Shown: positions 9,910-39,224 of the stretch, piece by piece
Position numbering within the stretch: position 1 is the stretch's first letter
How the letters are laid out: each line of letters opens with the position of its first letter
Source: a virus
Reading direction: 5' to 3' (one strand)
Virus record (IMG/VR): IMGVR_UViG_3300045284_000480
Coordinates: 1-41,447 of that record
Length of the DNA stretch: 41,447 nucleotides
The notes under the pieces: generated by a model
Seen by the model: only the letters and a program-made list of their open reading frames with translations
The model's database searches: none
Told to the model about the DNA's origin: nothing
Position numbers and translations under genes: made by a program

Positions 9910-9936
9910 CTTACCAAGTTCTTAGGGGGACTGCAA
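9908..9936 (-). promoter_or_regulatory. Operator-like site and antisense promoter inside the tail genes
   Basis: On the minus strand: -35 TTGCAG (9936-9931), 17-nt spacer, -10 TAAGCT (9913-9908). The left operator arm CTTACCAAGTTCTTAG (9910-9925) is intact and the right arm is replaced by GGGGG, which doubles as Shine-Dalgarno for the tail chaperone. It could block transcription (stoperator-like) or drive antisense RNA. Confidence 0.6.
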
Positions 9937-17017: not shown

Positions 17018-17392
17018 ATGAAGCGTGAGCCCACGCTGGTCATCGCGACCATCGGAACCATCCTCTCCCTCCTGGCCGGTTTCGGCCTGGACTTCCTCTC
17101 CACCGACCAGGCGGGCCTCATCGTGGCCGTGCTCACGGCCGGGCTCGGCATCTGGAACGCCCTGAAGGTCCGGCCGGTGGCGCCCGCGGCCTTCACCTAC
17201 GGCATCACGACGGTGGCCGCCCTGCTGAGCACGTACGGCCTCGACCTCTCGCAGGAGCGGGTGGGCCTGATCACCTCCGCTGTGCTCGCCACCCTGACCC
17301 TGATCCTGCGCGGCGCCGTCTCGCCCACGGCCGGCCCGGTGGACGCCTCCACCGCGAGCGTGCGGGCTCGGTCCGGTCCGTCCCCCTACTGA
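17018..17392 (+). CDS. Holin-like membrane protein
   Basis: The 124-residue protein has three to four hydrophobic segments (LVIATIGTILSLLAGF, LIVAVLTAGLGIWNAL, FTYGITTVAALLSTYG, LITSAVLATLTLIL) and short charged loops, as expected of an actinophage holin that releases the endolysin. The start follows AGTAGGGG. It is the last gene of the rightward block and ends 18 nt before a strong bidirectional terminator. Confidence 0.75.
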   Translation: MKREPTLVIATIGTILSLLAGFGLDFLSTDQAGLIVAVLTAGLGIWNALKVRPVAPAAFTYGITTVAALLSTYGLDLSQERVGLITSAVLATLTLILRGAVSPTAGPVDASTASVRARSGPSPY

Positions 17393-17824: not shown

Positions 17825-17853
17825 AGCTTACCAAGTTCTTGGTAAGAACGCAA
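17825..17853 (-). promoter_or_regulatory. Operator-containing promoter for 17455-17794
   Basis: -35 TTGCGT (17853-17848), N17, -10 TAAGCT (17830-17825). The dyad CTTACCAAGTTCTTGGTAAG (17827-17846) is perfect. It is followed by the conserved leader (GTGCTACACCGAGATGAGGG). Confidence 0.88.
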
Positions 17854-17888: not shown

Positions 17889-18188
17889 CTAGCGGTACCG
17901 GTTGGCCACCGCGAGGGCCTGGAGCCCGCGGGCCGCCCGCTCCCGTTCGATCTCCTTGCGGTTCCAGTCGATGAGCGGGGTGGACCGGTCGCCAGCGACG
18001 AACCGCGCCGCCACGTGGGCGATGGCGGATGCCCACCGCCACCCGGGGGAGGTGTTGGCGAAGATGGTCCCCTCGCTGAGCACGGCCGCCCGGTCCTCCT
18101 CGGGAACGGTCAGCAGGGCTCGCGCCGCTCGGGCGTACCCGCCCGCCTCTTTGGCGGTCTCGGTGAGAGCCTCGGTGGTGAGATCCAT
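17889..18188 (-). CDS. Accessory cassette protein, unknown
   Basis: This encodes a 99-residue, mostly helical, charged soluble protein with no Cys motif, signal peptide or TM. I do not recognise a family; the sequence (LTETAKEAGGYARAARALL, WNRKEIERERAARGLQAL) suggests helical bundles. It has its own operator promoter, leader with GAGGAGC Shine-Dalgarno, and terminator, so it behaves as a moron-like unit. Confidence 0.7.
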   Translation of the reverse strand: MDLTTEALTETAKEAGGYARAARALLTVPEEDRAAVLSEGTIFANTSPGWRWASAIAHVAARFVAGDRSTPLIDWNRKEIERERAARGLQALAVANRYR

Positions 18189-18219: not shown

Positions 18220-18248
18220 AGCTTACCAAGAACTTAGTAAGATGTCAA
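18220..18248 (-). promoter_or_regulatory. Operator-containing promoter for 17889-18188
   Basis: -35 is the consensus TTGACA (18248-18243), N17, -10 TAAGCT (18225-18220). The dyad is at 18222-18241. The TGA stop of the upstream gene lies within TTGACA. Confidence 0.88.
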
Positions 18249-18580
18249 ACGGAGCGCTTGGGGCGGCCCGGCCGCCCGGTGCGCCACGGAGCGGGCCGCT
18301 CAATGAGGCCCGCCTTGCTGGCCTGAATCACGGTGTCCCATAGGCTGGCGGGTTTACGCCCGAGGCGTGCCGCAATCTGCTCATGGCTCTCCCCGCAGGA
18401 GCGCAGGAACACGTACTCCTCTGCGGTCTCGGCCATGGACCGGTTGCGGAGTGGGAAGTCCGCGAGCGTGCCGTCCGACTTGGCGGCCATCCAGCACGCA
18501 GCGTCCAGGCCACGCCCCCGCAACTCCCCGGTCTTGCCGCACCGGGCGCACTCCCCGGACCGGCGGTGGTGGTGACTCAT
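18245..18580 (-). CDS. Zinc-binding/HTH protein, candidate regulator
   Basis: The 111-residue protein has an N-terminal His/Cys cluster (His3-5, CARC at 11-14, Cys29) and a C-terminal helix-turn-helix-like stretch, AEEYVFLRSCGESHEQIAARLG then SLWDTVIQASKAGLI, followed by a basic tail RTGRPGRPKRS that could contact DNA. It may be a transcription factor of the phage or against the host. The ATG lies 6 nt after the -10 box, so the mRNA is probably leaderless. It could also bind the phage operator, but the ribbon-helix-helix protein at 36530 is the better candidate. Confidence 0.7.
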   Translation of the reverse strand: MSHHHRRSGECARCGKTGELRGRGLDAACWMAAKSDGTLADFPLRNRSMAETAEEYVFLRSCGESHEQIAARLGRKPASLWDTVIQASKAGLIERPAPWRTGRPGRPKRSV

Positions 18581-18586
18581 GGGGTG

Positions 18587-18615
18587 AGCTTACCAAGTTC
18601 TTAGTAAGAACGCAA
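18587..18615 (-). promoter_or_regulatory. Operator-containing promoter for 18245-18580 (leaderless class)
   Basis: -35 TTGCGT (18615-18610), N17, -10 TAAGCT (18592-18587). The dyad is at 18589-18608. ATG 18580 follows after 6 nt. Confidence 0.88.
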
Positions 18616-18653: not shown

Positions 18654-18956
18654 TCAGTACCCCATGTAGTGGCGCTCCTCGTCATCCATGTAGTAGTGCT
18701 GCGGGCCGTAGCAGTTGCTGAGCGAGAGCCCGTGCTCGCACTCGGGGTAGAGCCACGCCTGGAGCGCCGTCATGGTCGGGGGGAGGTCCAGGACGTCCCA
18801 CGCGTGGGTGCTGGACTTGGCGCCGAGGAACTCGATGACCCGCTTGGTCACGTCCTCCGGCCGGCCGTCCCACTGGACCGCGTACCCGCGACGCTCGGCG
18901 CAGATGTGGAGCATGACCCGGACCGTCACCCAAGTGATTCCGTTGCTGATAAGCAT
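18654..18956 (-). CDS. Accessory cassette protein, unknown
   Basis: The 100-residue protein starts LISNGITWVTVRVMLHICAE and ends in a His/Tyr-rich tail (YYMDDEERHYMGY). No family is recognised. The middle (DVTKRVIEFLGAKS, DLPPTMTALQAWLYPEC) is helical. A start upstream at 18986 is unlikely because it would lie inside the promoter; ATG 18956 has GAGGGAG at good spacing and is at the same leader distance as other cassettes. Confidence 0.7.
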   Translation of the reverse strand: MLISNGITWVTVRVMLHICAERRGYAVQWDGRPEDVTKRVIEFLGAKSSTHAWDVLDLPPTMTALQAWLYPECEHGLSLSNCYGPQHYYMDDEERHYMGY

Positions 18957-18987: not shown

Positions 18988-19016
18988 AGCTTACCAAGTT
19001 CTTAGTAAGAACGCAA
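18988..19016 (-). promoter_or_regulatory. Operator-containing promoter for 18654-18956
   Basis: -35 TTGCGT (19016-19011), N17, -10 TAAGCT (18993-18988), dyad 18990-19009, then the conserved leader GTGCTACACCGAG. The -35 box shares bases with the terminator stem at 19015-19045. Confidence 0.88.
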
Positions 19017-19054: not shown

Positions 19055-19390
19055 TCAGAAGGACGGGTTCCGGTAGTAGCTCCGATGGCCCAGGCCAAGG
19101 CGGACGTAGCTCGCGCCCTTCAGGATGAACCGCTGGCGGTCCTCGTTCCAGAGGTACACGTCCTTGCCAGCGTTCGGGCGGGCCTCGTAGCGGTAGGTCG
19201 CGCTCCCGTCCTGCTCACTGCCGCTCACGCGGATGGCCTCGTCGTCCTGCGCCACCACGCCGCGGATCTGCCCCCTGCGGGCGCCGCTCTTGAAGTAGAG
19301 CACCTCCACGATGGTGCACGCGTAGCGGTCCGAGCCAACCGCGTAGGTGGCGCCCATTCCAACCTCGGGGGTGGTGATGGCCTCGGCCAT
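19055..19390 (-). CDS. Accessory cassette protein, beta-rich unknown
   Basis: This encodes a 111-residue, mainly beta-strand protein (GATYAVGSDRYACTIVEVLYF, ATYRYEARPNAGKDVYLWN) with no membrane segment. The pattern resembles small SH3/barrel-like domains, but I cannot name a family. ATG 19390 has GAGGAGAA 5 nt upstream. It has its own operator promoter and terminator. Confidence 0.7.
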   Translation of the reverse strand: MAEAITTPEVGMGATYAVGSDRYACTIVEVLYFKSGARRGQIRGVVAQDDEAIRVSGSEQDGSATYRYEARPNAGKDVYLWNEDRQRFILKGASYVRLGLGHRSYYRNPSF

Positions 19391-19421: not shown

Positions 19422-19450
19422 AGCTTACCAAGAACTTAGTAAGACGTCAA
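19422..19450 (-). promoter_or_regulatory. Operator-containing promoter for 19055-19390
   Basis: -35 TTGACG (19450-19445), N17, -10 TAAGCT (19427-19422), dyad 19424-19443. The TGA stop of the upstream gene (19447-19449) is inside the -35 box. Confidence 0.88.
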
Positions 19451-19948: not shown

Positions 19949-20122
19949 CTACTTGGTGAGCGTGGCCGCAGGCTTGGCCTGACCCGGCCGCATCACGTCC
20001 ACGTTGTCCATCGTGCCGCTCTGGAGCCACTTCCCGGCCGTGTACATCGCCTCGTCCATGTCCTCCGCGTTGGCGGACCCGACGTAGATTCCGTTCTTCC
20101 GGCCGATCAGCGTGACCTTCAT
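19949..20122 (-). CDS. 57-residue accessory protein
   Basis: A small protein, MKVTLIGRKNGIYVGSAN then AEDMDEAMYTAGKWLQSG, with an N-terminal beta hairpin, a helix and a Lys-containing tail. The operator promoter, conserved leader with GAGGGAGA and a hairpin behind it support a real gene. No family is recognised. Confidence 0.7.
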   Translation of the reverse strand: MKVTLIGRKNGIYVGSANAEDMDEAMYTAGKWLQSGTMDNVDVMRPGQAKPAATLTK

Positions 20123-20152: not shown

Positions 20153-20181
20153 AGCTTACCAAGAACTTAGTAAGAGCGCAA
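20153..20181 (-). promoter_or_regulatory. Operator-containing promoter for 19949-20122
   Basis: -35 TTGCGC (20181-20176), N17, -10 TAAGCT (20158-20153), dyad 20155-20174, followed by the leader GTGCTACACCGAGAACGAGG. Confidence 0.87.
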
Positions 20182-20476: not shown

Positions 20477-21063
20477 GCCGCGCTCCTCAGTTTGGCCCCG
20501 TGCCGCGAGTTGCAGCCGGAGCAGGCAGGGCGGATGTTCCCTCGCGCGTAGGTGCCACCTTGGCAACCGGGCAGGGGGAAGCGGTCCACGGTGATGGTCT
20601 CCAGGGTGAGCAGCGTCCCGCAGGCGAAGGAACAGAGCGCCACAGTTCCGTTGCCGAACTCGGTCAGGAGCCACGCCTTGCGGCGGCGGCGCGCGTCCGA
20701 GCCTCCCCGGTCGTTCTTGTTGCTGGTGCCCCGCCGGGCCTTGCCGTTGGCGTCCAGGCGGCGCGGCCGGCGCGAGGCGTTCTCGGCGGCGGCGGCCTCG
20801 TGCAGCGGGCCCACGTCCCAAGCCTGCCCCGTCACCTCGTCCACGTGGATGAGTTCCCACCGCATCCCGGGGCCGAGGCCCTCGTGAGCCTTGAGGCGGG
20901 AGGGCGTGCCGTCCATCCGGAGCCTCTGGCCCGTGACGAACGCGTAGCCCCCGTGAGCGCCCTCCTCGACCGTCACCACCCTGATGCGGTAGGAGGTCCG
21001 GTTGTACGTCTTCTTGACGGTGAGCAGTGTTCCCGGCCGGACATCGGCCCATGTCGTAATCAT
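20473..21063 (-). CDS. HNH endonuclease
   Basis: The last 60 residues of this 196-residue protein hold an HNH zinc-finger nuclease pattern: CSFACG, then a basic stretch and RGNIRPACSGCNSRHG. The first 90 residues form a beta-rich domain (TLLTVKKTYNRTSYRIRVVTVEEGAHGGYAF) that may contact substrate. It may be a homing endonuclease, or may act in recombination or against competing phages. ATG 21063 is 6 nt after the -10 box: leaderless. The gene sits in an operator-controlled unit, unlike most free-standing homing genes. Confidence 0.8.
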   Translation of the reverse strand: MITTWADVRPGTLLTVKKTYNRTSYRIRVVTVEEGAHGGYAFVTGQRLRMDGTPSRLKAHEGLGPGMRWELIHVDEVTGQAWDVGPLHEAAAAENASRRPRRLDANGKARRGTSNKNDRGGSDARRRRKAWLLTEFGNGTVALCSFACGTLLTLETITVDRFPLPGCQGGTYARGNIRPACSGCNSRHGAKLRSAA

Positions 21064-21069
21064 GGAAGC

Positions 21070-21098
21070 AACTTACCAAGTTCTTGGTAACCCGTCAA
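21070..21098 (-). promoter_or_regulatory. Operator-containing promoter for the HNH gene (leaderless class)
   Basis: -35 TTGACG (21098-21093), N17, -10 TAAGTT (21075-21070), dyad 21072-21091 with one end mismatch (final C). The ATG follows after 6 nt. Confidence 0.85.
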
Positions 21099-21139: not shown

Positions 21140-21640
21140 TCAGTTGAGCGTGAACGTGACTCCGCATCGGCGGCCGTTGGACTCGCCGAGGTGGCCTTGC
21201 CCCTTCCACCAGATCTCGCAGGTCATGCCCGAGACGGCGGCCGTCCCCTGCGCCGTGAGGGTGTAGGTGGTGCCCACCTTGCCGGGCTCCTCGTGCTCCC
21301 ACATCCCGTAGTACCCGATCCCGTCCTCGTCCCGCTTGGCCTGGAGGTTGGCGCAGGGCTGGACGGCGCCCGCTCGGGTCCACTCACACACCGGCGTGGC
21401 CTTGTTCTCGCTGTCCCAATTGAGGAACAGCCCCACCTCACCCGGTTGCGTGTTGTGCGCCGAGGGGTCCCCCTGGACCGGTGCCGGTTGCTGGACGGCC
21501 GGCCCACCCTTGGGCTCCTCGACCTTGCCCGGTGCGGGTGCCTTGGCGGGCTCCCCGGTGTCCTTGCCCTGCTGAGCGCACCCGGTTGCGAATGCCACCA
21601 CCATGAGGGTGATCAGCCCGTAGACCTTGAGCCGCTTCAT
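21140..21640 (-). CDS. Phage-encoded lipoprotein
   Basis: The 166-residue protein has a signal peptide KRLKVYGLITLMVVAFATGC with a lipobox (FATGC, Cys21), so it should be lipidated and held on the outer face of the membrane. A Pro/Ala/Lys linker (residues 25-70) precedes a beta-rich domain with cysteines at CEW, CAN, CEI and CGV, probably disulphide-bonded. Lipoproteins expressed from temperate phages often block superinfection; that role here is inference. It has its own operator promoter and terminator. Confidence 0.85.
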   Translation of the reverse strand: MKRLKVYGLITLMVVAFATGCAQQGKDTGEPAKAPAPGKVEEPKGGPAVQQPAPVQGDPSAHNTQPGEVGLFLNWDSENKATPVCEWTRAGAVQPCANLQAKRDEDGIGYYGMWEHEEPGKVGTTYTLTAQGTAAVSGMTCEIWWKGQGHLGESNGRRCGVTFTLN

Positions 21641-21673: not shown

Positions 21674-21702
21674 AGCTTACCAAGAACTTAGTAAGAACGC
21701 AA
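21674..21702 (-). promoter_or_regulatory. Operator-containing promoter for the lipoprotein
   Basis: -35 TTGCGT (21702-21697), N17, -10 TAAGCT (21679-21674), dyad 21676-21695. The Shine-Dalgarno region is GGGGAAAGGGG. A short palindrome, GGCCCCCGGGGGCC (21705-21718), lies just upstream. Confidence 0.88.
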
Positions 21703-21731: not shown

Positions 21732-21965
21732 CTAGTGGATGATGAAGTGGCTCCAGATCTTGACCTCGTACCCGGCCGTGACCATGGCCCGCAGGGCGGC
21801 GGCCTCGCACCGGGCATACGGCGCTCCGTTGAAGTCCCGGCCGTTGCCGTAGAAGTCGAACGTGATCGACGCCTGCGAGTCGTCCTGCATGGTGAAGTTG
21901 AAGCGGATACCCCGCTGGCCGTGCATGGTGCCGATCTCCTCGGTGGTGGTCTGGACCTGCGTCAT
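21732..21965 (-). CDS. 77-residue accessory protein
   Basis: A small beta-rich protein (GIRFNFTMQDDSQASITFDFYG) followed by a helix (RCEAAALRAMVTAGYEV) and a His-ending tail. It is soluble, and no family is recognised. It has its own operator promoter and a leader with GAGGGAG. Confidence 0.7.
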   Translation of the reverse strand: MTQVQTTTEEIGTMHGQRGIRFNFTMQDDSQASITFDFYGNGRDFNGAPYARCEAAALRAMVTAGYEVKIWSHFIIH

Positions 21966-21996: not shown

Positions 21997-22025
21997 AGCT
22001 TACCAAGAACTTAGTAAGACGTCAA
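21997..22025 (-). promoter_or_regulatory. Operator-containing promoter for 21732-21965
   Basis: -35 TTGACG (22025-22020), N17, -10 TAAGCT (22002-21997), dyad 21999-22018. The TGA of the gene ending at 22022 lies inside the -35 box. Confidence 0.88.
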
Positions 22026-23453: not shown

Positions 23454-23644
23454 CGCGCACGCCCCGGCTTGCCACGCACGCCCTTGGTCATGTGGTAGCC
23501 CTCGCAGAAGATGCACCAGTGCACGGTACGGCTCCCCTTCCGGCGCCCGAACGCGGCGAGGGCAATCCTCGCGGCGCGCTTGTTCGGGAGCCGTTCCTTG
23601 CCGATGACGTTGCACAGTTCCTGAGGTCCGAAGATACCGGCCAT
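23450..23644 (-). CDS. Small basic zinc-finger-like protein
   Basis: A 64-residue protein, AGIFGPQELCNVIGKERLPNK with helix KRAARIALAAFG, then HWCIFCEGYHMTKG that can hold a metal (Cys, Cys, His). Small proteins of this layout are common in actinophage accessory regions. It is coupled by ATGA to the GIY-YIG-like gene and by TGATG to the gene before it. Confidence 0.65.
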   Translation of the reverse strand: MAGIFGPQELCNVIGKERLPNKRAARIALAAFGRRKGSRTVHWCIFCEGYHMTKGVRGKPGRAR

Positions 23645-23790
23645 CACACACACTCCTTGTGGCTCAACCCCATGGGCTTGGTCTGCCAAACGACAGCCTG
23701 CCCCTCGACGATCGCGGACCGGCACACCTTGCAGTGCGTCCGGTACCGCGGGATCTTCTTGGTCTGGCTCTTTACCTTGTTGAAGTTCAT
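23644..23790 (-). CDS. 48-residue zinc-ribbon protein (operon start)
   Basis: This encodes a protein with Cys20-x2-Cys23 and His44-x2-Cys47, spacing that suits a treble-clef zinc finger (THCKVCRSAIVEGQAVVW, GLSHKEC). It is the first gene of the seven-gene operon ending at 22022, and its ATG is 5 nt after the -10 box, so it is probably leaderless. Confidence 0.7.
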   Translation of the reverse strand: MNFNKVKSQTKKIPRYRTHCKVCRSAIVEGQAVVWQTKPMGLSHKECV

Positions 23791-23795
23791 GGCCT

Positions 23796-23824
23796 ACCTT
23801 ACCACGTTCTTGGTAAGTCCGGAA
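23796..23824 (-). promoter_or_regulatory. Operator-containing promoter of the WhiB operon (leaderless class)
   Basis: -35 TTCCGG (23824-23819, weak), N17, -10 TAAGGT (23801-23796). The dyad CTTACCACGTTCTTGGTAAG (23798-23817) has one arm change. ATG follows after 5 nt. Confidence 0.8.
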
Positions 23825-23845
23825 GAGGCACGTTGGGGGGCTTGG

Positions 23846-23865
23846 CCTACCAAGATTTTGGTGGG
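23846..23865. promoter_or_regulatory. Degenerate operator upstream of the ATPase gene
   Basis: CCTACCAAGATTTTGGTGGG matches the operator consensus at 15 of 20 positions and keeps the inner ACCAA/TTGGT arms. It overlaps the Shine-Dalgarno region of the FtsK-like gene, so binding could control that gene. Confidence 0.6.
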
Positions 23866-23868
23866 ATC

Positions 23869-25653
23869 ATGGTAAGTATGGAGACGGTGCAGCTAGTCAA
23901 GCCCCGGCGGCACCTCGTGGTGCGCGGCCTCTGGCGCTATTTCGTGACCGGCCGGCCCCTGTGGGGCAAGGGGGACAATGCCACGTTCCTCCTCGACGCG
24001 ACCACCGACTACCGGGGCGGTCCGGTGGAGCGGTTGAGCCGCGCCCGCTGGCGCCGGGTGGCTCGGCGGCACGCTGGCGTCACGGCGCCGCTCTGCCTCC
24101 TCGCGTGGGACTGGCGCGCGGCGGCCCTGTATGCCCTCCTGGCCCTCGTGGGGGTCGGGGGGTGGCTCGGGTACCTCGTGGCGCTCTGGTGGCCGCAGAG
24201 GGCCGTACGGCGCACCTACGTCTACCCTGCCGCGCGTGTGCTCGCCAAGGTGACCGGGCAGAAGTTCCGGCGCCGCGCCGCCCTACGGGACATCCTGCTC
24301 CCGGCCGGGTACGGCGAGGAGCCCACGGAGATCCCGGTGGTGGTCTTCCTGCCGGACATCCCGCTGGACGCTGGCACCAAGCGGCGCGTGGTGGAGGCGC
24401 TCGGGCCGCGCCTCGGGCTCCCGGACGCCACCGCCCGGTGGATCGAGGTTGGCGAGCGCATCCGGGTGGAGTTGCTCCCGCAGTTGCTCCCGCCGGTCTC
24501 CGTGCGCCTCGCGGACCTCATGGACGAGTTGCTGGCCGCGCCGCTGGCGCAACCGGTGGTTGGCGTCCAGGGCAAGGGCCACGTGATCCACATGGACTTC
24601 AACAACGACTCGCCCCACACCCTCGGGTCCGCGGGCTCGGGCGCCGGAAAGTCCACGCTCTACAAGTTCGTGGCCATGCAGCGCCTGCGGCACCCGAACA
24701 CCTACGCGATCATGCTGGACTTCAAGAAATGGTCCCACCTGCGCTGGATGGGCCGCCTGGAGCCCGGCCGCGTGCTGATCGAGGACGAGGTTCCGCGCAT
24801 CCACGAGGTGCTCTGCCGGGTGCTGGATGAGTTGCTCTGGCGCAAGTCCTTCAACCTCGACCAGGAGCGCGAGCTTGAGGCCCTGCCCACCGTGGATGTC
24901 TACGTGGAAGAGATCAACACGTTGATGTCCCTGCTCCAGGAGTATTGGAAGGCGGAGGTTGCGCGGCGCAAGAGCGAGGCGCGCGCGATGCTCCGGCGCG
25001 CCAAGGACAGCGAGGACGAGGGGCTGATCGAGGAGGCGGAGGAGGCCCTCGCGGCGGCCAACGGGCTCTCTGCGACGTCCCCCGCCATCCAGGCCCTGCG
25101 GTACGGGGTCAACCTCGGGCGCGAGTTCCGCATCCACTTCCACCTGATCGGCCAGTCCATGAGCGCTAAGGCCGCCGGGGGCAGGGACACGCGCGAGTCC
25201 TTCCGCACGCGGCTCCTCGCGCGGTGGGACGCCAAGACGTGGAAGATGCTGGCGGACGGAGTCCCGTTCATCGCGTGCCCCGCCGGACCGACCGGCATTT
25301 GGGCGCACGTCCACGGGGCCGAGGTGGAGATCGTCCGGGTCCCGTTCGTGGCGGATGCGGACGCGGTGGCGTACGTCCAGGGCGGCCCTCGTCCGTCCCT
25401 GCCGATGTTCCACGGGGACGCGATCGTGGCCGAGGTCCGGCCGGCGCTGGACGCGTCCGCGAGCCTCCGTGATCTCGTCCCGATGCTCCCGGCGCCGGGG
25501 CTCGGCATCGACGCTCTGCGCAAGGCGGCGCAGCGTCCGGGCTTCCCGGCGCCGGTTGGCACCGTGGTCCGGGGGGTGGCCGCGGAGTACTCGGTGGCCG
25601 AGGTGCTCGCCTGGTTTGCGGACCGCGAGCGCATGGCCATCGATGCAGCTTAG
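23869..25653 (+). CDS. FtsK/SpoIIIE/TraB-type DNA translocase
   Basis: The 594-residue protein has one or two membrane segments (about residues 76-110, LYALLALVGVGGWLGYLVALW), Walker A GSAGSGAGKST (255-265), Walker B VDVYVEEINTL (about 342), GREFRIHFHLIGQS as a following conserved segment, and a C-terminal winged-helix-like end (YSVAEVLAWFADRERM). It resembles the septal/conjugative DNA pumps of actinomycete plasmids (TraB-like). In a phage it may move or maintain an extrachromosomal prophage. The DUF2637-like gene at 26486 supports that context. ATG 23869 or 23878 are both possible starts. It is the only plus-strand gene run within the accessory half. Confidence 0.85.
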   Translation: MVSMETVQLVKPRRHLVVRGLWRYFVTGRPLWGKGDNATFLLDATTDYRGGPVERLSRARWRRVARRHAGVTAPLCLLAWDWRAAALYALLALVGVGGWLGYLVALWWPQRAVRRTYVYPAARVLAKVTGQKFRRRAALRDILLPAGYGEEPTEIPVVVFLPDIPLDAGTKRRVVEALGPRLGLPDATARWIEVGERIRVELLPQLLPPVSVRLADLMDELLAAPLAQPVVGVQGKGHVIHMDFNNDSPHTLGSAGSGAGKSTLYKFVAMQRLRHPNTYAIMLDFKKWSHLRWMGRLEPGRVLIEDEVPRIHEVLCRVLDELLWRKSFNLDQERELEALPTVDVYVEEINTLMSLLQEYWKAEVARRKSEARAMLRRAKDSEDEGLIEEAEEALAAANGLSATSPAIQALRYGVNLGREFRIHFHLIGQSMSAKAAGGRDTRESFRTRLLARWDAKTWKMLADGVPFIACPAGPTGIWAHVHGAEVEIVRVPFVADADAVAYVQGGPRPSLPMFHGDAIVAEVRPALDASASLRDLVPMLPAPGLGIDALRKAAQRPGFPAPVGTVVRGVAAEYSVAEVLAWFADRERMAIDAA

Positions 25654-26485: not shown

Positions 26486-27199
26486 TCAGGACGCGTCTTG
26501 CATGGCGGCCTGGACGCGGAGGACGTGGGCGAGGGAGAGCGGGATCGTGGACGCAGCCTCGGACGCGTCCACGCCGGACTTGAGCATCTGGACGCAACGC
26601 TTAGTCCGCTGGAGCGGCTTGGCGGTCACGTCCACCACCGCCATGATGTCCACGTCCGTCTTGCCGTCCAGGATCATCGCCACCGCCTTCTCCACGTCCC
26701 ACCGGGCAACGCGGCCGGAGGTGGTGGCCACGGGGCGGGGGAGCGGAGCGGGCTTGGGGGCGAGGGGCACGATCGGCAGGAGCGCCGGGAGCACCTGGAC
26801 CTCCTTGACCACCTCCACGATCCGCTCGGTCACCTCGGCCACCTTGGCGTGGCCGCCGTGGACGATGAGGAAGGCAAAGAACATCGCGAGGGGCATGCAG
26901 GCCGCGAGGAGGTACGTGGGCATCTTGAAGGCGCCGTAGGAGGCCGCGTTGAAGGTCAGCGAGTAGGCGGCGCCGTAGGCCACCGCGAAACCGCCCGCCT
27001 TCTTGTTGCCGCCCTGCATGGCCCGGATGCCGATGTAGATCAGGCCGTCGATGCCGGCCGGGTGCAGCGCCGCCACCACCGCGGGGTTACCGGCGGCCTG
27101 CGTCACGTGGTAGATGTGCTGCGCGGAGGCCGCGAACGCGCTGAGCGCCACGCCACCGGCCACGATCTCGTCCCGCTTGGCCTTCAGGTTCTCGAACAT
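26486..27199 (-). CDS. DUF2637-like membrane protein
   Basis: The 237-residue protein has about four hydrophobic segments in its first 125 residues with the order LSAFAASAQHIYHVT, PAGIDGLIYIGIRAM, YGAAYSLTFNAASYG, LLAACMPLAMFFAFLIVH, as in DUF2637/SpdB-like proteins encoded next to Tra genes on actinomycete plasmids. The C-terminal half has a coiled segment and a helix-turn-helix-like end (TDVDIMAVVDVTAKPLQRTKRCVQML). Its operator promoter links it to the phage regulon, and its likely partner is the FtsK-like translocase. The family call is by pattern. Confidence 0.7.
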   Translation of the reverse strand: MFENLKAKRDEIVAGGVALSAFAASAQHIYHVTQAAGNPAVVAALHPAGIDGLIYIGIRAMQGGNKKAGGFAVAYGAAYSLTFNAASYGAFKMPTYLLAACMPLAMFFAFLIVHGGHAKVAEVTERIVEVVKEVQVLPALLPIVPLAPKPAPLPRPVATTSGRVARWDVEKAVAMILDGKTDVDIMAVVDVTAKPLQRTKRCVQMLKSGVDASEAASTIPLSLAHVLRVQAAMQDAS

Positions 27200-27229
27200 C
27201 TCTTGTCTCCCTCATCTCGGTGTACCAAG

Positions 27230-27258
27230 AGCTTACCAAGAACTTAGTAAGACCGCAA
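27230..27258 (-). promoter_or_regulatory. Operator-containing promoter for the DUF2637-like gene
   Basis: -35 TTGCGG (27258-27253), N17, -10 TAAGCT (27235-27230), dyad 27232-27251. The leader is CACCGAGATGAGGGAGA, as in the other cassettes. Confidence 0.87.
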
Positions 27259-28117: not shown

Positions 28118-28398
28118 CTCTGACCTCCTGCTGTCCTCGATGTCCATACCAGAAGCTTACCAAGAACTTGGTAAGTCCGCAAGGGCTCGCGTTGGGAGCG
28201 CCCGATGTGCCAGTGCCTGCGGGCCGTCTCGCCGAGGCGCTGGTCATCCTGCCAGCGGCAGGGATAGACGTCCATCGGGTGGTCATAGCCGTAGCGGAGC
28301 AGCACCCGCCAGCGGTGAAGGTACGCGCCGAGGCGGTACCGGTGGGAGATCTTGCGAATGTGGCTGGTCTTCCACCGGTACCAGGGGCGCCCGCTCAC
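28114..28398 (-). CDS. Basic small protein whose 3' end reads through an operator promoter
   Basis: From GTG 28398 (GTGA overlap) the frame gives 94 residues rich in Arg, His and Trp (SGRPWYRWKTSHIRKISHRY). Its last 33 codons run through the promoter/operator at 28154-28182, the dyad being read as TYQVLGK, and stop in ATGA with the next gene. It may be a nucleic-acid-binding peptide. The overlap on both sides is the main support; the operator part may be non-essential. Confidence 0.55.
   Translation of the reverse strand: MSGRPWYRWKTSHIRKISHRYRLGAYLHRWRVLLRYGYDHPMDVYPCRWQDDQRLGETARRHWHIGRSQREPLRTYQVLGKLLVWTSRTAGGQR
28154..28182 (-). promoter_or_regulatory. Operator-containing promoter inside the operon (before 27737-28117)
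   Basis: -35 TTGCGG (28182-28177), N17, -10 TAAGCT (28159-28154), perfect dyad CTTACCAAGAACTTGGTAAG (28156-28175). It is embedded in the 3' end of a coding frame. Confidence 0.85.
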
Positions 28399-28892: not shown

Positions 28893-29443
28893 CGGACGTA
28901 GAGCGCCCGGTGCTCCGGCGTCGGCTGGTCATCCGCCCACGCCACCTCCCCGGCGGGGGTGAGCCAGAGGAGCGCCCCCTCAGACCCGCGGGCCTGCGTA
29001 CCGGAGAGGTCCGTGAGCCACCCCTCGATCCGGCCGAGGGCCTCGCCGTACGCCCGGATGTGGTTCTTGGCCTCGGCCATCTCGCTGCGGTACGTCCGCA
29101 TGTCCAGCGTGACCGACGCCCGGCCGATCTTCATGCAGTGCTCCCCGTAGCACTCGGCGGTACGGGACAGCCGACCAAGCATGTCCCGGATGGCCGCCTC
29201 GGGGTCCGTGGGGGTCACGGTCACCTCGGCCACGATGACCTCCACCACGCCGTCCAACTCGTTCCAGAAACGGATCAGGTCCGCGGTCTCGTCCTCGGTC
29301 CACGGCCCCGTGAAGCCGGCCGCCGTGAGGACCGACACGGCCATCTCCTTGCCCTCCTGGTCCAGGCCCATGCGTTCGATGAGGTCCGTGAGGGTGACGG
29401 TGGCTTCCGGGTTCTGCGCGCTCTCGGCGCTCTCCTGTGTCAT
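28889..29443 (-). CDS. Unknown acidic protein (operon start)
   Basis: The 184-residue acidic protein has a Glu/Ala-rich N-terminus, helices (LTDLIERMGLDQEGKEMAV, LIRFWNELDGVVEVIVAE) and a second half with RTYRSEMAEAKNHIRAYGEALGRIEGWL. It may be a regulator or anti-host protein, but nothing proves a function. ATG 29443 is 6 nt after the -10 box (leaderless). Confidence 0.68.
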   Translation of the reverse strand: MTQESAESAQNPEATVTLTDLIERMGLDQEGKEMAVSVLTAAGFTGPWTEDETADLIRFWNELDGVVEVIVAEVTVTPTDPEAAIRDMLGRLSRTAECYGEHCMKIGRASVTLDMRTYRSEMAEAKNHIRAYGEALGRIEGWLTDLSGTQARGSEGALLWLTPAGEVAWADDQPTPEHRALYVR

Positions 29444-29449
29444 GCCAGT

Positions 29450-29478
29450 AGCTTACCAAGTTCTTAGTAGAAACGCAA
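29450..29478 (-). promoter_or_regulatory. Operator-containing promoter of the 28114-29443 operon (leaderless class)
   Basis: -35 TTGCGT (29478-29473), N17, -10 TAAGCT (29455-29450). The operator at 29452-29471 has two changes at its right end (GTAGA). Confidence 0.83.
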
Positions 29479-30539: not shown

Positions 30540-30580
30540 GCTGCACTCCTCGTGCTAGGTGAAGCGCCTACGTGGCGCCG

Positions 30581-30659
30581 TGGGCCCCGGAGGATTCGAA
30601 CCTCCAACCACCGGATATCGAGCGGCCGTACCGGTGCTCTGCCATTGAGCTAGGGACCC
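30581..30659 (-). tRNA. tRNA-like gene with enlarged anticodon loop
   Basis: A 79-nt cloverleaf on the minus strand. The acceptor GGGTCCC pairs with GGGGCCC (7 bp, one G-U). The D arm is GCTC/GAGC with loop AATGGCA. The T arm is GGAGG TTCGAAT CCTCC. The anticodon stem ACCGG/CCGGT is perfect but encloses 16 nt (TACGGCCGCTCGATAT) instead of 7, so the anticodon is undefined. A GAT or CGA could be presented if part of the loop folds. CCA is not encoded. It is either a pseudo-tRNA, a tRNA with a 9-nt insertion, or a decoy. Confidence 0.75.
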
Positions 30660-30770: not shown

Positions 30771-30798
30771 AGCTTACTCAGATCTTAGTAGATGTCAA
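30771..30798 (-). promoter_or_regulatory. Operator-containing promoter of the leader/tRNA operon
   Basis: -35 TTGACA (30798-30793), 16-nt spacer, -10 TAAGCT (30776-30771). The operator (30773-30792) has several changes (CTTACTCAGATCTTAGTAGA). It overlaps the RecB-like stop codon. Confidence 0.75.
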
Positions 30799-34000: not shown

Positions 34001-34209
34001 GCCGAGTGCCGCTCGAACGGCCACTCCGCGGTGGAGGCGGCAATGTGGGCGAGCACGGTCACGTGGGTGTGCGAGAGGTCTCCGTTCGCGATGGTGCGCA
34101 GCACGTCCAGGTGGAGCGAGTCCTCCAAGACGTGCGCCTTTTCCTGATCGCCATCGGCGAGGGCCGCCCGGATGCCCTCCAGGCGGCCCCTCAAGTCGTT
34201 GATATCCAT
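33838..34209 (-). CDS. Leaderless small helical protein (3' end uncertain)
   Basis: The first 68 or so residues (DINDLRGRLEGIRAALADGD, KAHVLEDSLHLDVLRTI) are good helical coding sequence from ATG 34209, 6 nt after the -10 box. After about EWPFERHS the frame continues as an antisense-like Arg/Trp-rich stretch to 33838, while the zinc-ribbon frame starts. The true C-terminus may be reached by a frameshift, or the extension is a by-product of high GC content. Confidence 0.5.
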   Translation of the reverse strand: MDINDLRGRLEGIRAALADGDQEKAHVLEDSLHLDVLRTIANGDLSHTHVTVLAHIAASTAEWPFERHSACSWPGTRGVAPPAAIPSPAAPVWRTWRTRWWRRSARASRRCTGPRRTRWPSWT

Positions 34210-34215
34210 GCTGGT

Positions 34216-34244
34216 AGTTTACCACGTTCTTAGTAAGGCGTCTA
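34216..34244 (-). promoter_or_regulatory. Operator-containing promoter of the helicase operon (leaderless class)
   Basis: -35 TAGACG (34244-34239, weak), N17, -10 TAAACT (34221-34216). The dyad TTTACCACGTTCTTAGTAAG (34218-34237) is nearly complete. The TAG stop of the gene ending at 34242 lies inside the -35 box. Confidence 0.82.
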
Positions 34245-35691: not shown

Positions 35692-36227
35692 GCCTGCGTC
35701 CTTCCCAACTCGCTGGCGCCCACGAACACGACGCGCGAGCCTTGGAGGAGATCGGTGTGCACCTCCGTGGCCACGCCCACACCGAACGAGGCGGAGGCGA
35801 TGCCCGAGGGGTGGAACCACACCACGCCCATGGCGCCGATCTCGGGCGGGGGCGTGTCCGCGGTGAAATCCAGCACGATCGACCACGAGTAGTGCCCGGG
35901 GATGCGCGTGTGCACCGGGGGCACCGTGCCGGGGGTGACCTTCTCCTTGCAGACCCGGCACTCGTAGATGCCGAGGCACTCGCACACGATGCCGTCATAT
36001 CCGGCCATGCAGTCCTCCGCGTGCACCTCGTGCAGCGTCGGGTACTGCTGATCCTCGATCGAGTACGCGTGCTTGTGGCCGGCGCCGTCCGTGAACGACC
36101 ACCGCTTGTCCGGCCCCGGGAGGTTCGAGGTGACGTCGATCATGTCTCGCCACACGCTGAGCACGGCGCGGTAGCCCTCCCGGCCGTTCCAGGACCCGAG
36201 GCCCTGCATGTGCACGCCGGAGGTCAC
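35688..36227 (-). CDS. Unknown protein with Cys cluster
   Basis: The 179-residue protein has a Cys cluster (DCMAGYDGIVCECLGIYECR, VCKEKVTPG) that may bind zinc, and a beta-rich C-terminal half (YSWSIVLDFTAD, GAMGVVWFHPSGIASASFG). No family. GTG 36227 has GGAGG in front and overlaps the upstream stop (GTGA). Confidence 0.63.
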   Translation of the reverse strand: MTSGVHMQGLGSWNGREGYRAVLSVWRDMIDVTSNLPGPDKRWSFTDGAGHKHAYSIEDQQYPTLHEVHAEDCMAGYDGIVCECLGIYECRVCKEKVTPGTVPPVHTRIPGHYSWSIVLDFTADTPPPEIGAMGVVWFHPSGIASASFGVGVATEVHTDLLQGSRVVFVGASELGRTQA

Positions 36228-36430
36228 ATCTCCTCCAGGGCGGCATGCAGGAGACGGCCGCGGGCCGCCCGGCCGCGGATGCTCATGGCGGTCCGGGAGA
36301 TGAGCCCCCGCTCCCGCAGTTCCTTCACGATGTCCTCCGGCGTCCCCTGCGGGAGGGCGCCGGACTGCGTGTTGGCTCCCATGAGCGCCTTGACGGCCGC
36401 CTCGGTGAGCCCCTGCTCTGGTCTGGTCAT
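36224..36430 (-). CDS. Small wHTH-like protein at the switch
   Basis: This encodes a 68-residue protein that ends TPEDIVKELRERGLISRTAM then basic SIRGRAARGRLL, consistent with a small winged-helix or HTH DNA-binding protein. It is the first gene of the minus-strand unknown operon and is divergent from the ribbon-helix-helix gene. Its ATG is 6 nt after the -10 box (leaderless). By position it could be the Cro-like partner of the switch; this is inference. Confidence 0.65.
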   Translation of the reverse strand: MTRPEQGLTEAAVKALMGANTQSGALPQGTPEDIVKELRERGLISRTAMSIRGRAARGRLLHAALEEM

Positions 36431-36436
36431 ACCAAA

Positions 36437-36465
36437 ACCTTACCACGTTCTTGGTAAGTCCTCAA
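36437..36465 (-). promoter_or_regulatory. Operator-containing promoter, leftward side of the switch
   Basis: -35 TTGAGG (36465-36460), N17, -10 TAAGGT (36442-36437). The dyad CTTACCACGTTCTTGGTAAG (36439-36458) is the same as at the WhiB operon. Confidence 0.85.
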
Positions 36466-36487
36466 CGGGTGGTGCGTGATCACCGGA

Positions 36488-36507
36488 TATGGTAGATTCT
36501 TAGTAAG
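36488..36507. promoter_or_regulatory. Half-conserved operator before the RHH gene
   Basis: TATGGTAGATTCTTAGTAAG keeps the right arm TTCTTAGTAAG and loses the left. It lies 22 nt before ATG 36530. No good -35/-10 pair is clear on the plus strand (TAGATT at 36493-36498 is a weak -10), suggesting autoregulation at a distinct promoter. Confidence 0.65.
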
Positions 36508-36529
36508 TCAAGGAAGGGAGGGCGGCCCG

Positions 36530-36754
36530 ATGCCACCCAAGGTTGTTGATCGTGAGTTGAAGGCTCTGGCGGATCAGGAGGCACCCGGCGCGCTGACCGA
36601 GCGCGTGGAGGCCGCCGTGGACGTCGTGACGGACAAGGCGCTGGACGCCCTCGCCGCGGAGATGGGCGGCAAGGGCGCCCGCTCCAAGGCCATCCGGCTT
36701 CTGCTCCAGAAGGGCGCCGTTGCGGTGGTGGCGGAGCGCGCCGCCCGAGCGTAG
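36530..36754 (+). CDS. Ribbon-helix-helix DNA-binding protein, candidate phage repressor
   Basis: The 74-residue protein has an N-terminal extension (about residues 1-23), then a short strand (TERVEAAVDVV), helix A (TDKALDALAAEM), a GGKG turn and helix B (ARSKAIRLLLQKG), the layout of CopG/Arc-type ribbon-helix-helix proteins. These bind short dyads as dimers of dimers, which suits a 20-bp palindrome. The gene is divergent from 36224-36430, with two operator copies between them. It is followed by a terminator, so it is a single-gene unit. I propose that it binds the phage operator; a plasmid-type centromere-binding role is an alternative. Confidence 0.72.
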   Translation: MPPKVVDRELKALADQEAPGALTERVEAAVDVVTDKALDALAAEMGGKGARSKAIRLLLQKGAVAVVAERAARA

Positions 36755-36779: not shown

Positions 36780-36803
36780 GCCCCGAGGTTGCCGCCTCGG
36801 GGC
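36780..36803 (+). terminator. Terminator of the RHH gene
   Basis: GCCCCGAGG (36780-36788) pairs with 36795-36803 around TTGCCG. It separates the regulator from the primase-helicase gene. Confidence 0.8.
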
Positions 36804-36826: not shown

Positions 36827-38977
36827 GTGACACAAGCTACCATGCAGCCCCTCTCCCTGCACCACCGGACGGAGCTTTTCGAGGGCTCCTCGATTGACCC
36901 GGCGGTGGCCTCGGAGAGGGGCTATCAGACCATGGAGCGGCCCAACCGGGTCGACCCATCGCACCCCTCGGACACCCGGAGCGCGCTCTCCCGCATGGGC
37001 TTCCCCTCGTGGGCCATCCGCGAGGACTATTACTTTCCGGGCCTCTGGATTCCGCAGTACACCCCTGCGGGGGTCCGCTATGCCGGTCAGTGGAAGCCCT
37101 TCCGCGCGGTGGCCAACCGCGAGGGCAAGCCCATGCGCTACGCCTCGGCCAAGGGACCTTCCCGGATCGACGTGCACCCGCGGTGGAGCCGAGACCGCGG
37201 AGTGGATGACCCGGCACTCCTGCCCGCCATCCAGGACCCCACACTCCGCCTCTGGATCACGGAGGGGGTGAAAAAGGCGGACGCGCTCACCAGCCGCGGG
37301 GAAGTCACCGTGGCCCTCTCCGGGGTGTACAACTGGCGGAACGGACACGCCTCCCTGGGCGATTGGGAGGACGTCCGCCTCAAGGGCCGCGAAATCGTAC
37401 TGTGCTTCGATGCAGACGCGGTCACCAAGTCCCACGTAGCGCAGGCCATGGCCCGCCTCGGAAAGTGGCTGAAGTACAAGGGCGCGGCCAAGGTCTGGTA
37501 TCTCGTGGTGCCGTTTGGCGTCAATGACAAGGCCACCAAGGGCGTTGATGACTTCTTTGCCGCCGGGGGCACGCTCAAGGAGTTGGAGCAGGCGTTCGAG
37601 ACCAAGCCCCCCACGGTCACCGATCTTGACGATCGGTTCACCGATGCCCGCCTCGCCGAGGCGCTCGCGGTGGAAGTGCTGGACGGCCGGTACGTGTGGG
37701 TGGACGGCCTGGACTGGTTGCGCTTCAACGGCAACGTGTGGAGCAAGGCCACGGCCGTGTCCGCGATCGAGGATGTCCGCCGTTGGGGCCTGGACCACTA
37801 CGGCGAGGCGGCGGCGCGCCTCAAGCTTGACGATCGGGCCATGGCGTCCGACGTGGACGGCTGGAAAACCATGCTGTCCAAGAGCCGCGCCGGGACCGTG
37901 CTGGACTTCTCCCGGGGCCTCGTGGAGCGCGCCGCGGAGGACCTGGACGTGGACCTGGACCACATCAACACCCCGAGCGGCTATGTGGACCTGGAGAAGG
38001 GCCTCATCCGTCAGGTGGGCGCCGAGGAGTACCCCACGCACATGACGGGGGCGAGGTTCGACCCCGACGCACACAGCGAGGTGTGGGAGTCCTTCATCAA
38101 GCGCATCCTCCCGGACGAGGAGGTGGCCAAGTTCGTGCAGCGCCTGTTCGGCTATTCGCTCCTCGGCGAGGTTCGCGAGCACGTCATGCCGATCTTCACG
38201 GGCGAGGGCGCCAACGGCAAGGGCACGCTCCGGGATGCCGTGCTGAAGGCAATCGGGGACTACGGGCTGGAGGTGGACCCGGAGCTACTCATGGCCTCCC
38301 ACAATCCGAGGCACCTCACCTTCCTCATGGAGTTGCGCGGCCGGCGCCTCGTGTTCTGCTCCGAGACACAGAAGGGCCGCAGGTTCGCCGAGTCCGAGAT
38401 GAAGCGCCTCGTGGGTGGAGACCCCATCCAGGCGAACAGGATGCGTCAGGACCCCATCACGTTCCTGCCCTCGCACACGCTGATCATGTGCACCAACCAC
38501 CTCCCGCAGGTGTCGGGCGATGACCCGGCCGTGTGGCGGCGCATCCTGGTGGTGCCGTTCGACGTGGTGATCCCCGAGGGGGAGCGGGACGGCCGGCTAC
38601 CCAAGAGGCTCCAGGAGCCCGATGTGAGCGCCGCTGTGCTCGCGTGGATGTACCGGGGCTTCCTGGACTACCAGGAGCGCGGTTTGGAGCCTCCAGCGGC
38701 TGTACAGGGGCGCACGGCGGCCTATCGCAGTGAGTCGGACCTCACGGGGCGGTTCCTGGCCGAGGTGCTGGAGTCCTCGCCCGGCAGCAAGGTCACGGCG
38801 GCGGCGCTCCTGGAGGCGTACCTCACCTGGTTCCGGACCGAGGCGAGCAAGGAGGACATCCCGCTCAGCAAGCGCGAGCTTGGGATGGAGATGACCAAGC
38901 GGAATTTCAGATCGGGCAAATCGGACGGCCGTATGGTCTACCGGGATGTGGCCCTCACCCCGCCTGAGCAGGGCTAG
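36827..38977 (+). CDS. Primase-helicase (toprim-like/DUF3854 plus SF3 helicase, D5-like)
   Basis: The 716-residue protein combines an N-terminal toprim-like primase part (LWITEGVKKADAL about residue 143, IVLCFDADAVTK about 190) and a C-terminal SF3/D5-type helicase with Walker A FTGEGANGKGT (about 460-470), CSETQKGRRFAESEMKRLVGGD and LIMCTNHLP. It likely opens and primes the phage origin. It is the first replication gene on the plus strand, starting at GTG 36827 with GGAG 6 nt upstream. A large inverted repeat directly follows its stop. Confidence 0.92.
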   Translation: MTQATMQPLSLHHRTELFEGSSIDPAVASERGYQTMERPNRVDPSHPSDTRSALSRMGFPSWAIREDYYFPGLWIPQYTPAGVRYAGQWKPFRAVANREGKPMRYASAKGPSRIDVHPRWSRDRGVDDPALLPAIQDPTLRLWITEGVKKADALTSRGEVTVALSGVYNWRNGHASLGDWEDVRLKGREIVLCFDADAVTKSHVAQAMARLGKWLKYKGAAKVWYLVVPFGVNDKATKGVDDFFAAGGTLKELEQAFETKPPTVTDLDDRFTDARLAEALAVEVLDGRYVWVDGLDWLRFNGNVWSKATAVSAIEDVRRWGLDHYGEAAARLKLDDRAMASDVDGWKTMLSKSRAGTVLDFSRGLVERAAEDLDVDLDHINTPSGYVDLEKGLIRQVGAEEYPTHMTGARFDPDAHSEVWESFIKRILPDEEVAKFVQRLFGYSLLGEVREHVMPIFTGEGANGKGTLRDAVLKAIGDYGLEVDPELLMASHNPRHLTFLMELRGRRLVFCSETQKGRRFAESEMKRLVGGDPIQANRMRQDPITFLPSHTLIMCTNHLPQVSGDDPAVWRRILVVPFDVVIPEGERDGRLPKRLQEPDVSAAVLAWMYRGFLDYQERGLEPPAAVQGRTAAYRSESDLTGRFLAEVLESSPGSKVTAAALLEAYLTWFRTEASKEDIPLSKRELGMEMTKRNFRSGKSDGRMVYRDVALTPPEQG

Positions 38978-38983
38978 GAAGGC

Positions 38984-39075
38984 AGTCAGGGAGGAGAGGG
39001 AGGAGATGTCTGAAACACTGGAGGTCTCGTACGCGTATAGAACTTTCAGGAGTCTCCTCCCTCTCCTCCCTGACT
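38984..39075. repeat. 23-bp perfect inverted repeat with purine arm, origin or terminator candidate
   Basis: The arm at 38984-39006 (AGTCAGGGAGGAGAGGGAGG and so on, nearly all purine) pairs perfectly with 39053-39075. A nested CTGAAA/TTTCAG pair lies in the 46-nt AT-richer loop. It follows the primase-helicase gene and is adjacent to an operator copy. It could be a replication origin or a strong transcript end; no iterons are visible. Confidence 0.7.
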
Positions 39076-39089
39076 AAGATTGTGGTAAG
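39070..39089 (+). promoter_or_regulatory. Operator copy overlapping the inverted repeat
   Basis: CTGACTAAGATTGTGGTAAG differs from the left-end operator (196-215) at two positions. A -10 TAAGAT (39086-39091) fits; a -35 is replaced by the pyrimidine arm of the repeat. A half-site CTAGTAAC follows at 39093. Confidence 0.65.
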
Positions 39090-39116: not shown

Positions 39117-39224
39117 ATGCTCAAGATCGTGATTGCCCTGATCCTGTTCCCGTCAAGCCTCGTGCTGCTCTGGCTCGGCGTGACGGGGATGATCAGGGCC
39201 TGGAATGTCCGAGGCCGCCGATGA
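39117..39224 (+). CDS. 35-residue membrane peptide
   Basis: MLKIVIALILFPSSLVLLWL is one membrane segment followed by a basic tail (RAWNVRGRR). Shine-Dalgarno AAAGGAG. It ends in ATGA with the endonuclease VII gene, and follows the operator at 39070. Too small for a functional call. Confidence 0.6.
   Translation: MLKIVIALILFPSSLVLLWLGVTGMIRAWNVRGRR

Follow-up and report, generated by a model that had tools for sequence, protein, structure and literature searches.

In the window, by which we mean the entire 41,447-nt stretch of viral DNA that was analysed, two small genes diverge from a 99-bp gap at 36431-36529. The leftward gene (36224-36430, minus strand) encodes a small MarR-like winged-helix protein of 68 aa, here called protein M, and is the first gene of a leftward operon. 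The rightward gene (36530-36754, plus strand) encodes a 74-aa ribbon-helix-helix (RHH)-like protein, which is the candidate master repressor discussed below. The first-pass annotation had read this arrangement as a repressor/Cro-type immunity switch, in which a winged helix-turn-helix (wHTH)-like gene and an RHH gene share one full and one half operator; both open reading frames, the gap and the two operators are present as it described them. The full operator is a complete dyad, CTTACCACGTTCTTGGTAAG, at 36439-36458, consisting of two 9-bp units with an 11-bp period. The M promoter (36437-36465, minus strand) has a -35 TTGAGG at 36465-36460, a 17-bp spacer and a -10 TAAGGT at 36442-36437, and 6 nt separate the -10 from the ATG at 36430; the M transcript is predicted to be leaderless. 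Of the half operator, one unit is intact (CTTAGTAAG, 36499-36507) and its partner is poor (TATGGTAGA, 36488-36496). The half operator overlaps the predicted transcript start of the RHH-like gene, for which an extended -10 (TGG-TAGATT) is predicted at 36490-36498 on the plus strand; the counterpart in the related phage G001 reads TGG-TATGTT.

A hairpin with a 10-bp stem sits between the RHH-like gene and the next gene at about 36780-36803 (plus strand), and hairpins are present at the equivalent place in G001 and G003. The RHH gene had been credited with its own terminator. The hairpin is indeed there, but it has no U-tract, and so a terminator is plausible rather than shown; an attenuator or a terminator would be a possible role. 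The next gene on the same strand (36842-38977) encodes a D5-type primase/helicase (PHROG DNA primase, 1.9e-90) with DUF3854, D5_N and DUF5906 domains, and in each of the six phages examined it lies immediately 3' of the RHH-like gene.

Four uncultured IMG/VR relatives (G001, G003, G006 and G009) have 7-12 operator sites each, and a reversed-pattern control over the related genomes gave no matches. Two of these relatives, G003 and G009, have exact terminal repeats and are therefore full length. The five site-rich phages have in common a helicase, a Cas4/RecB-type exonuclease, the primase, an endonuclease VII and a translocase-like gene; beyond those genes G006 and G009 share little with the window. 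The full plus half layout is kept in the corresponding gap of G001, G006 and G009, with the half operator at an identical position, and G003 has two tandem units there; thus, the gap 5' of the RHH-like gene has full plus half (or tandem-unit) sites in all five site-rich phages. These comparisons support a conserved control region of two divergent genes, in which the pair shares a strong operator and the RHH-like gene has a weaker site at its own promoter.

No close relative was found in phage, plasmid and sampled genome collections, no homologues of either gene of the pair were present in 50,697 phage records, and none of the RHH-like gene were found in plasmids. BLAST matches of the operator in the phage collection were at chance level only. 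Three candidate relatives were set aside: L007 (G002) has a partial match to M but no sites, G004 has no related genes and a single isolated site, which we attribute to chance, and L041 has a 58% primase match but no sites in 11 kb or in the rest of the contig.

The two operators shared by the gene pair are real at the gap, but they are not local to it, and their presence throughout the genome, embedded in promoters, had gone unnoticed. When the 531-bp region was first used as a query against the window, four other places already matched. The consensus dyad, CTTACYAMGWWCTTRGTAAG, occurs at 19 separate sites in the window with three or fewer mismatches, which was the cut-off for a site, compared with about zero expected; 12 of the 19 are perfect, and none of 20 Markov shuffles of the window reached this level. 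Eighteen of the 19 sites are wholly between predicted genes even though intergenic DNA makes up 11.5% of the window (binomial P ~2e-16). The 20-bp operator consists of two 9-bp near-palindromic units located 11 bp apart, and the unit itself is almost palindromic (CTTA-S-TAAG). Both single and paired units are found, and a third unit in the 11-bp register is present at a minority of the sites. Only one site, a partial one (9910), falls in the structural gene block; at 9910-9929 a 16-base operator remnant lies at the junction of two structural genes and reads into the ribosome site of the next gene.

The sites have a fixed relationship to promoters. In the direction of the neighboring gene, the dyad occupies the 17-bp spacer and extends into the -10 (TAAGCT or TATGCT), of which it takes up the first four bases, and -35 hexamers of the TTGACG/TTGCGT type are located just upstream of it. 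A TTG is present at the -35 position of 27 of the 57 sites in the five genomes, versus none on the opposite strand. An ATG is found exactly 6 nt past the -10 at 26 sites over the five genomes, versus a total of 7 start codons at the remaining offsets between 3 and 9 nt (offsets were counted on both strands, and the scripted orientation was wrong for some sites). The window genes with the 6-nt spacing start at 224 (plus strand), 18580, 21063, 28147, 29443, 34209 and 36430, and the gene starting at 23790, which is 5 nt past its -10, is a near match. Since an ATG located 6 nt past the -10 is at the expected transcript start, such targets would be leaderless, and we predict that many of the target genes are probably of this type. 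In another group of targets, the gene is preceded by a conserved 5' leader that contains a ribosome site. Most of the leftward early operons are among the targets, as are the genes for an HNH nuclease and a DUF2637 protein and, via a degenerate site, tRNA-Ala.

The operator-promoters given here were located by the consensus scan, mostly together with a comparison of promoter geometry. On the plus strand, the operator-promoter at 196-215 precedes the leaderless ATG at 224. On the minus strand, leaderless ATGs are preceded by operator-promoters at 18589-18608 (ATG at 18580), 21072-21091 (ATG at 21063, the HNH nuclease), 28156-28175 (ATG at 28147; third unit at 28145), 29452-29471 (ATG at 29443) and 34218-34237 (ATG at 34209). 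Also on this strand are those of genes 17889-18188 (18222-18241, with a TTGACA -35), 18654-18956 (18990-19009), 19055-19390 (19424-19443), 19949-20122 and following (20155-20174), 21140-21640 (21676-21695), 21732-21965 (21999-22018) and the DUF2637 gene 26486-27199 (27232-27251; third unit at 27221), and one at 17827-17846 was assigned by scan and geometry. The minus-strand operator-promoter at 23798-23817, with an ATG at 23790, is in a divergent gap facing the translocase-like gene 23878-25653. This second divergent gap (23798-23865, between gene 23644-23790 and gene 23878-25653) has a full and a degenerate site and resembles the main one. A degenerate operator-promoter with TTGACA (30773-30792, minus strand) is upstream of tRNA-Ala (30580-30659); this apparent promoter of the tRNA's own is inside the end of the exonuclease gene, and a similar site is present at G001:2326. 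A weaker plus-strand operator, found by the scan only, lies at 39070-39089 between the primase and gene 39117-39224.

The RHH-like gene family is present upstream of the primase in six of the six phages, and it co-occurs with the sites. The genes of G006 and G009 are too short and divergent for BLAST and were found by profile. When 4,906 six-frame ORFs were searched with a profile of the window (G000) and G001 sequences, the syntenic genes of G003, G006, G009 and G007 ranked directly after the profile's own two members (E values of 1e-10, 0.019, 0.041 and 0.072, respectively). With a three-sequence profile, the E values were 1e-6 for G006, 3e-5 for G009 and 0.004 for G007.

The earlier assignment of the 74-aa protein to the RHH class is weak. 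The Pfam RHH_1 match (E=0.09) is below the cut-off and was obtained with one of the six family members, and there is no NCBIfam match for the window protein. The AF2 monomer, which was built from a 3-sequence alignment, is all-helical (helices 19-45 and 48-73, no strand, pLDDT 77), and a PDB fold search with it gave no match; RHH strands form in the dimer. Profile matches in the PDB are mainly to the ABC-transporter signature, and PDB relatives were not found. Profile A3 gave 21 weak matches in 395 genomes of the class to which Streptomyces belongs, all of them in frames of at least 262 aa, which are too long for a small regulator, and these were rejected as noise because the profile also matches ABC transporters in the PDB. 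An hhalign comparison to Arc, Mnt, CopG and NikR is colinear and scores 17.5 versus a best score of 15.9 in 40 shuffles, with a probability of 11%. The strand residues of the window protein that are presumed from the alignment to face the DNA (E27, A29 and D31) are atypical of DNA-contacting strands. As in the RHH class, the operators are built from short symmetric units in tandem, spaced by about one turn of the helix. Near-palindromic 9-bp units, the 11-bp spacing and the occurrence of single, double and triple units mean that the operator anatomy fits an RHH protein better than a wHTH protein. Taking these results together, we consider it likely that the 74-aa protein has an RHH fold.

The wHTH-like character of protein M is backed by its AF2 model (pLDDT 90, pTM 0.76), for which the top PDB matches are members of the MarR family; the match to SarZ has a TM score of 0.72 on the query, a Foldseek probability of 1.0 and an E value of 0.11. 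At 68 aa, M has about half the length of a MarR protein. Judging from the model, it is plausible that M is a DNA-binding protein. Its homologue in G001 is 60% identical and that in G003 is weak, and a profile search of the six-frame ORFs of G006, G009 and G007 did not detect one.

These distributions bear on which protein occupies the operators. Among the five site-rich phages, only the window, G001 and G003 have M, which makes the RHH-like protein the likelier binder. In G006 and G009 the operators persist although M is undetectable, so that it is the RHH-like gene that constantly accompanies the operator, the half or tandem-unit site at its own promoter included. An unrecognisably divergent protein or a host protein could also be the one that holds the regulon. 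On balance we favor the interpretation that the RHH-like protein is the repressor of a phage-wide promoter-operator regulon that has its hub at 36.2-36.75 kb. According to this scheme, the approximately 19 operators would sit inside sigma-70-type promoters of early, mainly leftward, operons, where the bound protein would cover the spacer and the -10 and block RNA polymerase. Two RHH-like dimers per full operator would turn the early operons off, including that of the opposite M gene, and one dimer bound to the half site at the gene's own start point would trim the synthesis of the RHH-like protein itself. The position of the sites over the spacer, the -10 and the predicted start of the RHH-like gene points to repression by occlusion. 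The gap between the two genes is better read as the hub of a dispersed early-gene regulon, for which lysogenic immunity is one possible use.

The regulon may be used in either of two ways, both of which are live readings. By binding the sites and repressing, the RHH-like protein would presumably either shut down early transcription during a lytic cycle or silence a non-integrated (plasmid) prophage. The second of these is a lifestyle sub-case of the explanation that we favor. It states that the virus has a temperate switch, with the RHH-like protein as the prophage repressor and M as its Cro-like lytic partner, in an unintegrated P1-like plasmid prophage, and we regard it as possible but doubtful. 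The divergent pair with its shared operators, which is the part of the proposed immunity switch that holds, agrees with this reading, as do the dispersed-operator repressors known in plasmid prophages (P1 C1 with 22 operators, PMC8546580) and the translocase-like and DUF2637 genes, which recall actinobacterial plasmids. However, tyrosine and serine recombinases and ParA (PF00589, PF00239 and PF13614) are absent from the six related genomes, two of which are full length, so that none of the six has an integrase, a resolvase or ParA, and no motif-bearing prophage was found in GTDB contigs. In addition, M is not conserved alongside the operator system, and the strand with the lytic primase begins with the RHH-like gene, which argues against prophage silencing. 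The layout has the divergent regulator genes and shared operators of a repressor/Cro-type switch but lacks, in the six genomes, the integrase and partition genes of a temperate phage.

Another explanation is that M is the operator-binding regulator; it would occupy the 20-bp palindrome as a wHTH dimer and so repress its own leaderless promoter along with the others. The MarR-type fold of M is better supported than the RHH fold, the full operator is in M's own promoter, and wHTH dimers suit 20-bp palindromes. However, M is the protein that could not be detected in the operator-keeping G006 and G009, and a wHTH dimer needs neither near-palindromic single units nor third units phased at 11 bp. 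We consider this explanation improbable.

It is very improbable that a host regulator binds the sites and that the phage borrows a host control system. Streptomyces chromosomes do carry a near-identical palindrome, CTTACTAAGTACTTAGTAAG, and in L024 a copy is beside TetR-type and beta-glucosidase-like genes; however, the chromosomal sites are single and have a TA centre that is absent from the 19 window sites, and the sites travel with the phage gene family. The palindrome is found in L023-L026 and L028-L033 (Streptomyces) and in L034 (Nocardia), and the L024 copy, between the TetR-type gene and the beta-glucosidase-like gene, is the one locus that was read in detail. Matches to the dyad across GTDB are mostly this Streptomyces palindrome with its TA centre and were judged to be unrelated. 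The least probable reading, that the dyads are merely terminators or stoperator-like roadblocks, has in its favor that the dyad at 36458-36439 is followed by T-rich DNA and was flagged as terminator-like, but the sites stand before genes rather than after them, and the promoter geometry, with its fixed -35 TTG and 6-nt spacing to the ATG, led us to reject terminators.

The RHH-like repressor that we favor would belong to a known kind of system, namely dispersed operators, as many operator copies are located at early-gene promoters in the manner of P1 C1, phiC31 c and F55. The differences are that the operators are symmetric, embedded in promoters almost everywhere and linked to leaderless starts, and that the candidate is RHH-like rather than of the HTH type. 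The phiC31 c repressor of an actinobacterial (Streptomyces) phage has many palindromic operators near early promoters; however, phiC31 has larger repressor proteins and an integrase. The closest systems in logic are SSV1 F55 and P1 C1. F55 is an RHH repressor that maintains lysogeny; its sites are tandem repeats at early promoters, with fewer of them at the promoter of its own gene (PMC5569661). The window resembles SSV1 in having a small RHH(-like) virus protein, sites that overlap promoter elements and a reduced set of sites at that protein's promoter; unlike SSV1, which is an archaeal spindle virus with few target promoters, the window comes from an uncultured, tailed actinobacterial phage with about 19 sites and another operator sequence. 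By analogy with F55, an RHH master repressor, with two-unit operators in leaderless early promoters across the genome and one unit at its own promoter, might maintain a prophage that is not integrated and that has neither integrase nor partition genes in a tailed actinobacterial lineage, but we think this unlikely. P1 C1 is one repressor with 22 operators dispersed over the genome (PMC8546580); those operators are 17 bp and asymmetric, whereas here they are 20-bp dyads of two units.

Three other systems are less similar. The stoperators of Cluster A mycobacteriophage L5 are 20-30 dispersed sites for one repressor (PMC6550527), but they are asymmetric, oriented with transcription and mostly outside promoters, whereas the sites described here are symmetric and promoter-embedded. 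Cluster O phage Corndog has more than 30 17-bp dyad repeats per genome, some at predicted leaderless promoters, and no integrase (PMC4351075); unlike the situation here, most of its repeats are off promoters, many are in genes, and the sequence differs. MrpR of SPbeta is a master repressor that acts on a repeated intergenic element, SPBRE, upstream of many operons (PMC10516654), but it is a protein with a tyrosine-recombinase fold and a 15-bp motif.

The result is a prediction, made from sequence, of the whole early regulon of a lineage that has no close cultured relative. The prediction names the co-regulated operons, the transcript starts, which often coincide with the start codon's first base, and the 74-aa gene that would control them. 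If the RHH-like protein is the repressor, one-unit versus two-unit operators would be a compact way of setting autoregulation against target repression, and the same device would be used in both archaeal and bacterial viruses.

The sixth phage, G007 (L065-L067), displays a different pattern. The operator is nearly gone from this genome, and in its place leaderless promoters have another palindrome, TCCRCTATAGYGGA, centred on the -10; its core is present in 12 copies in G007 versus 0-1 in the five site-rich genomes. Examples are at 17113, 17464, 22304 and 22743. The RHH-like protein of G007 is also the most divergent of the family (31% to that of the window). The replacement of the operator together with a divergent RHH-like protein is suggestive of covariation, although it is not proof.

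Several minor observations concern neighboring genes and contigs. A 14.8-kb contig, L010 (IMGVR_UViG_3300039776_000005), has six operator sites, most of which are separated from an ATG by 6 nt, and also encodes a homologue of the translocase-like protein; the contig excludes the part with the repressor gene. The translocase-like protein (23878-25653) has a Walker A motif in the L010 relative and a weak FtsK/SpoIIIE match in G001, G003 and G007. Together with the DUF2637 protein (26486-27199), it recalls actinobacterial conjugative plasmids, and both are conserved in several of these phages.
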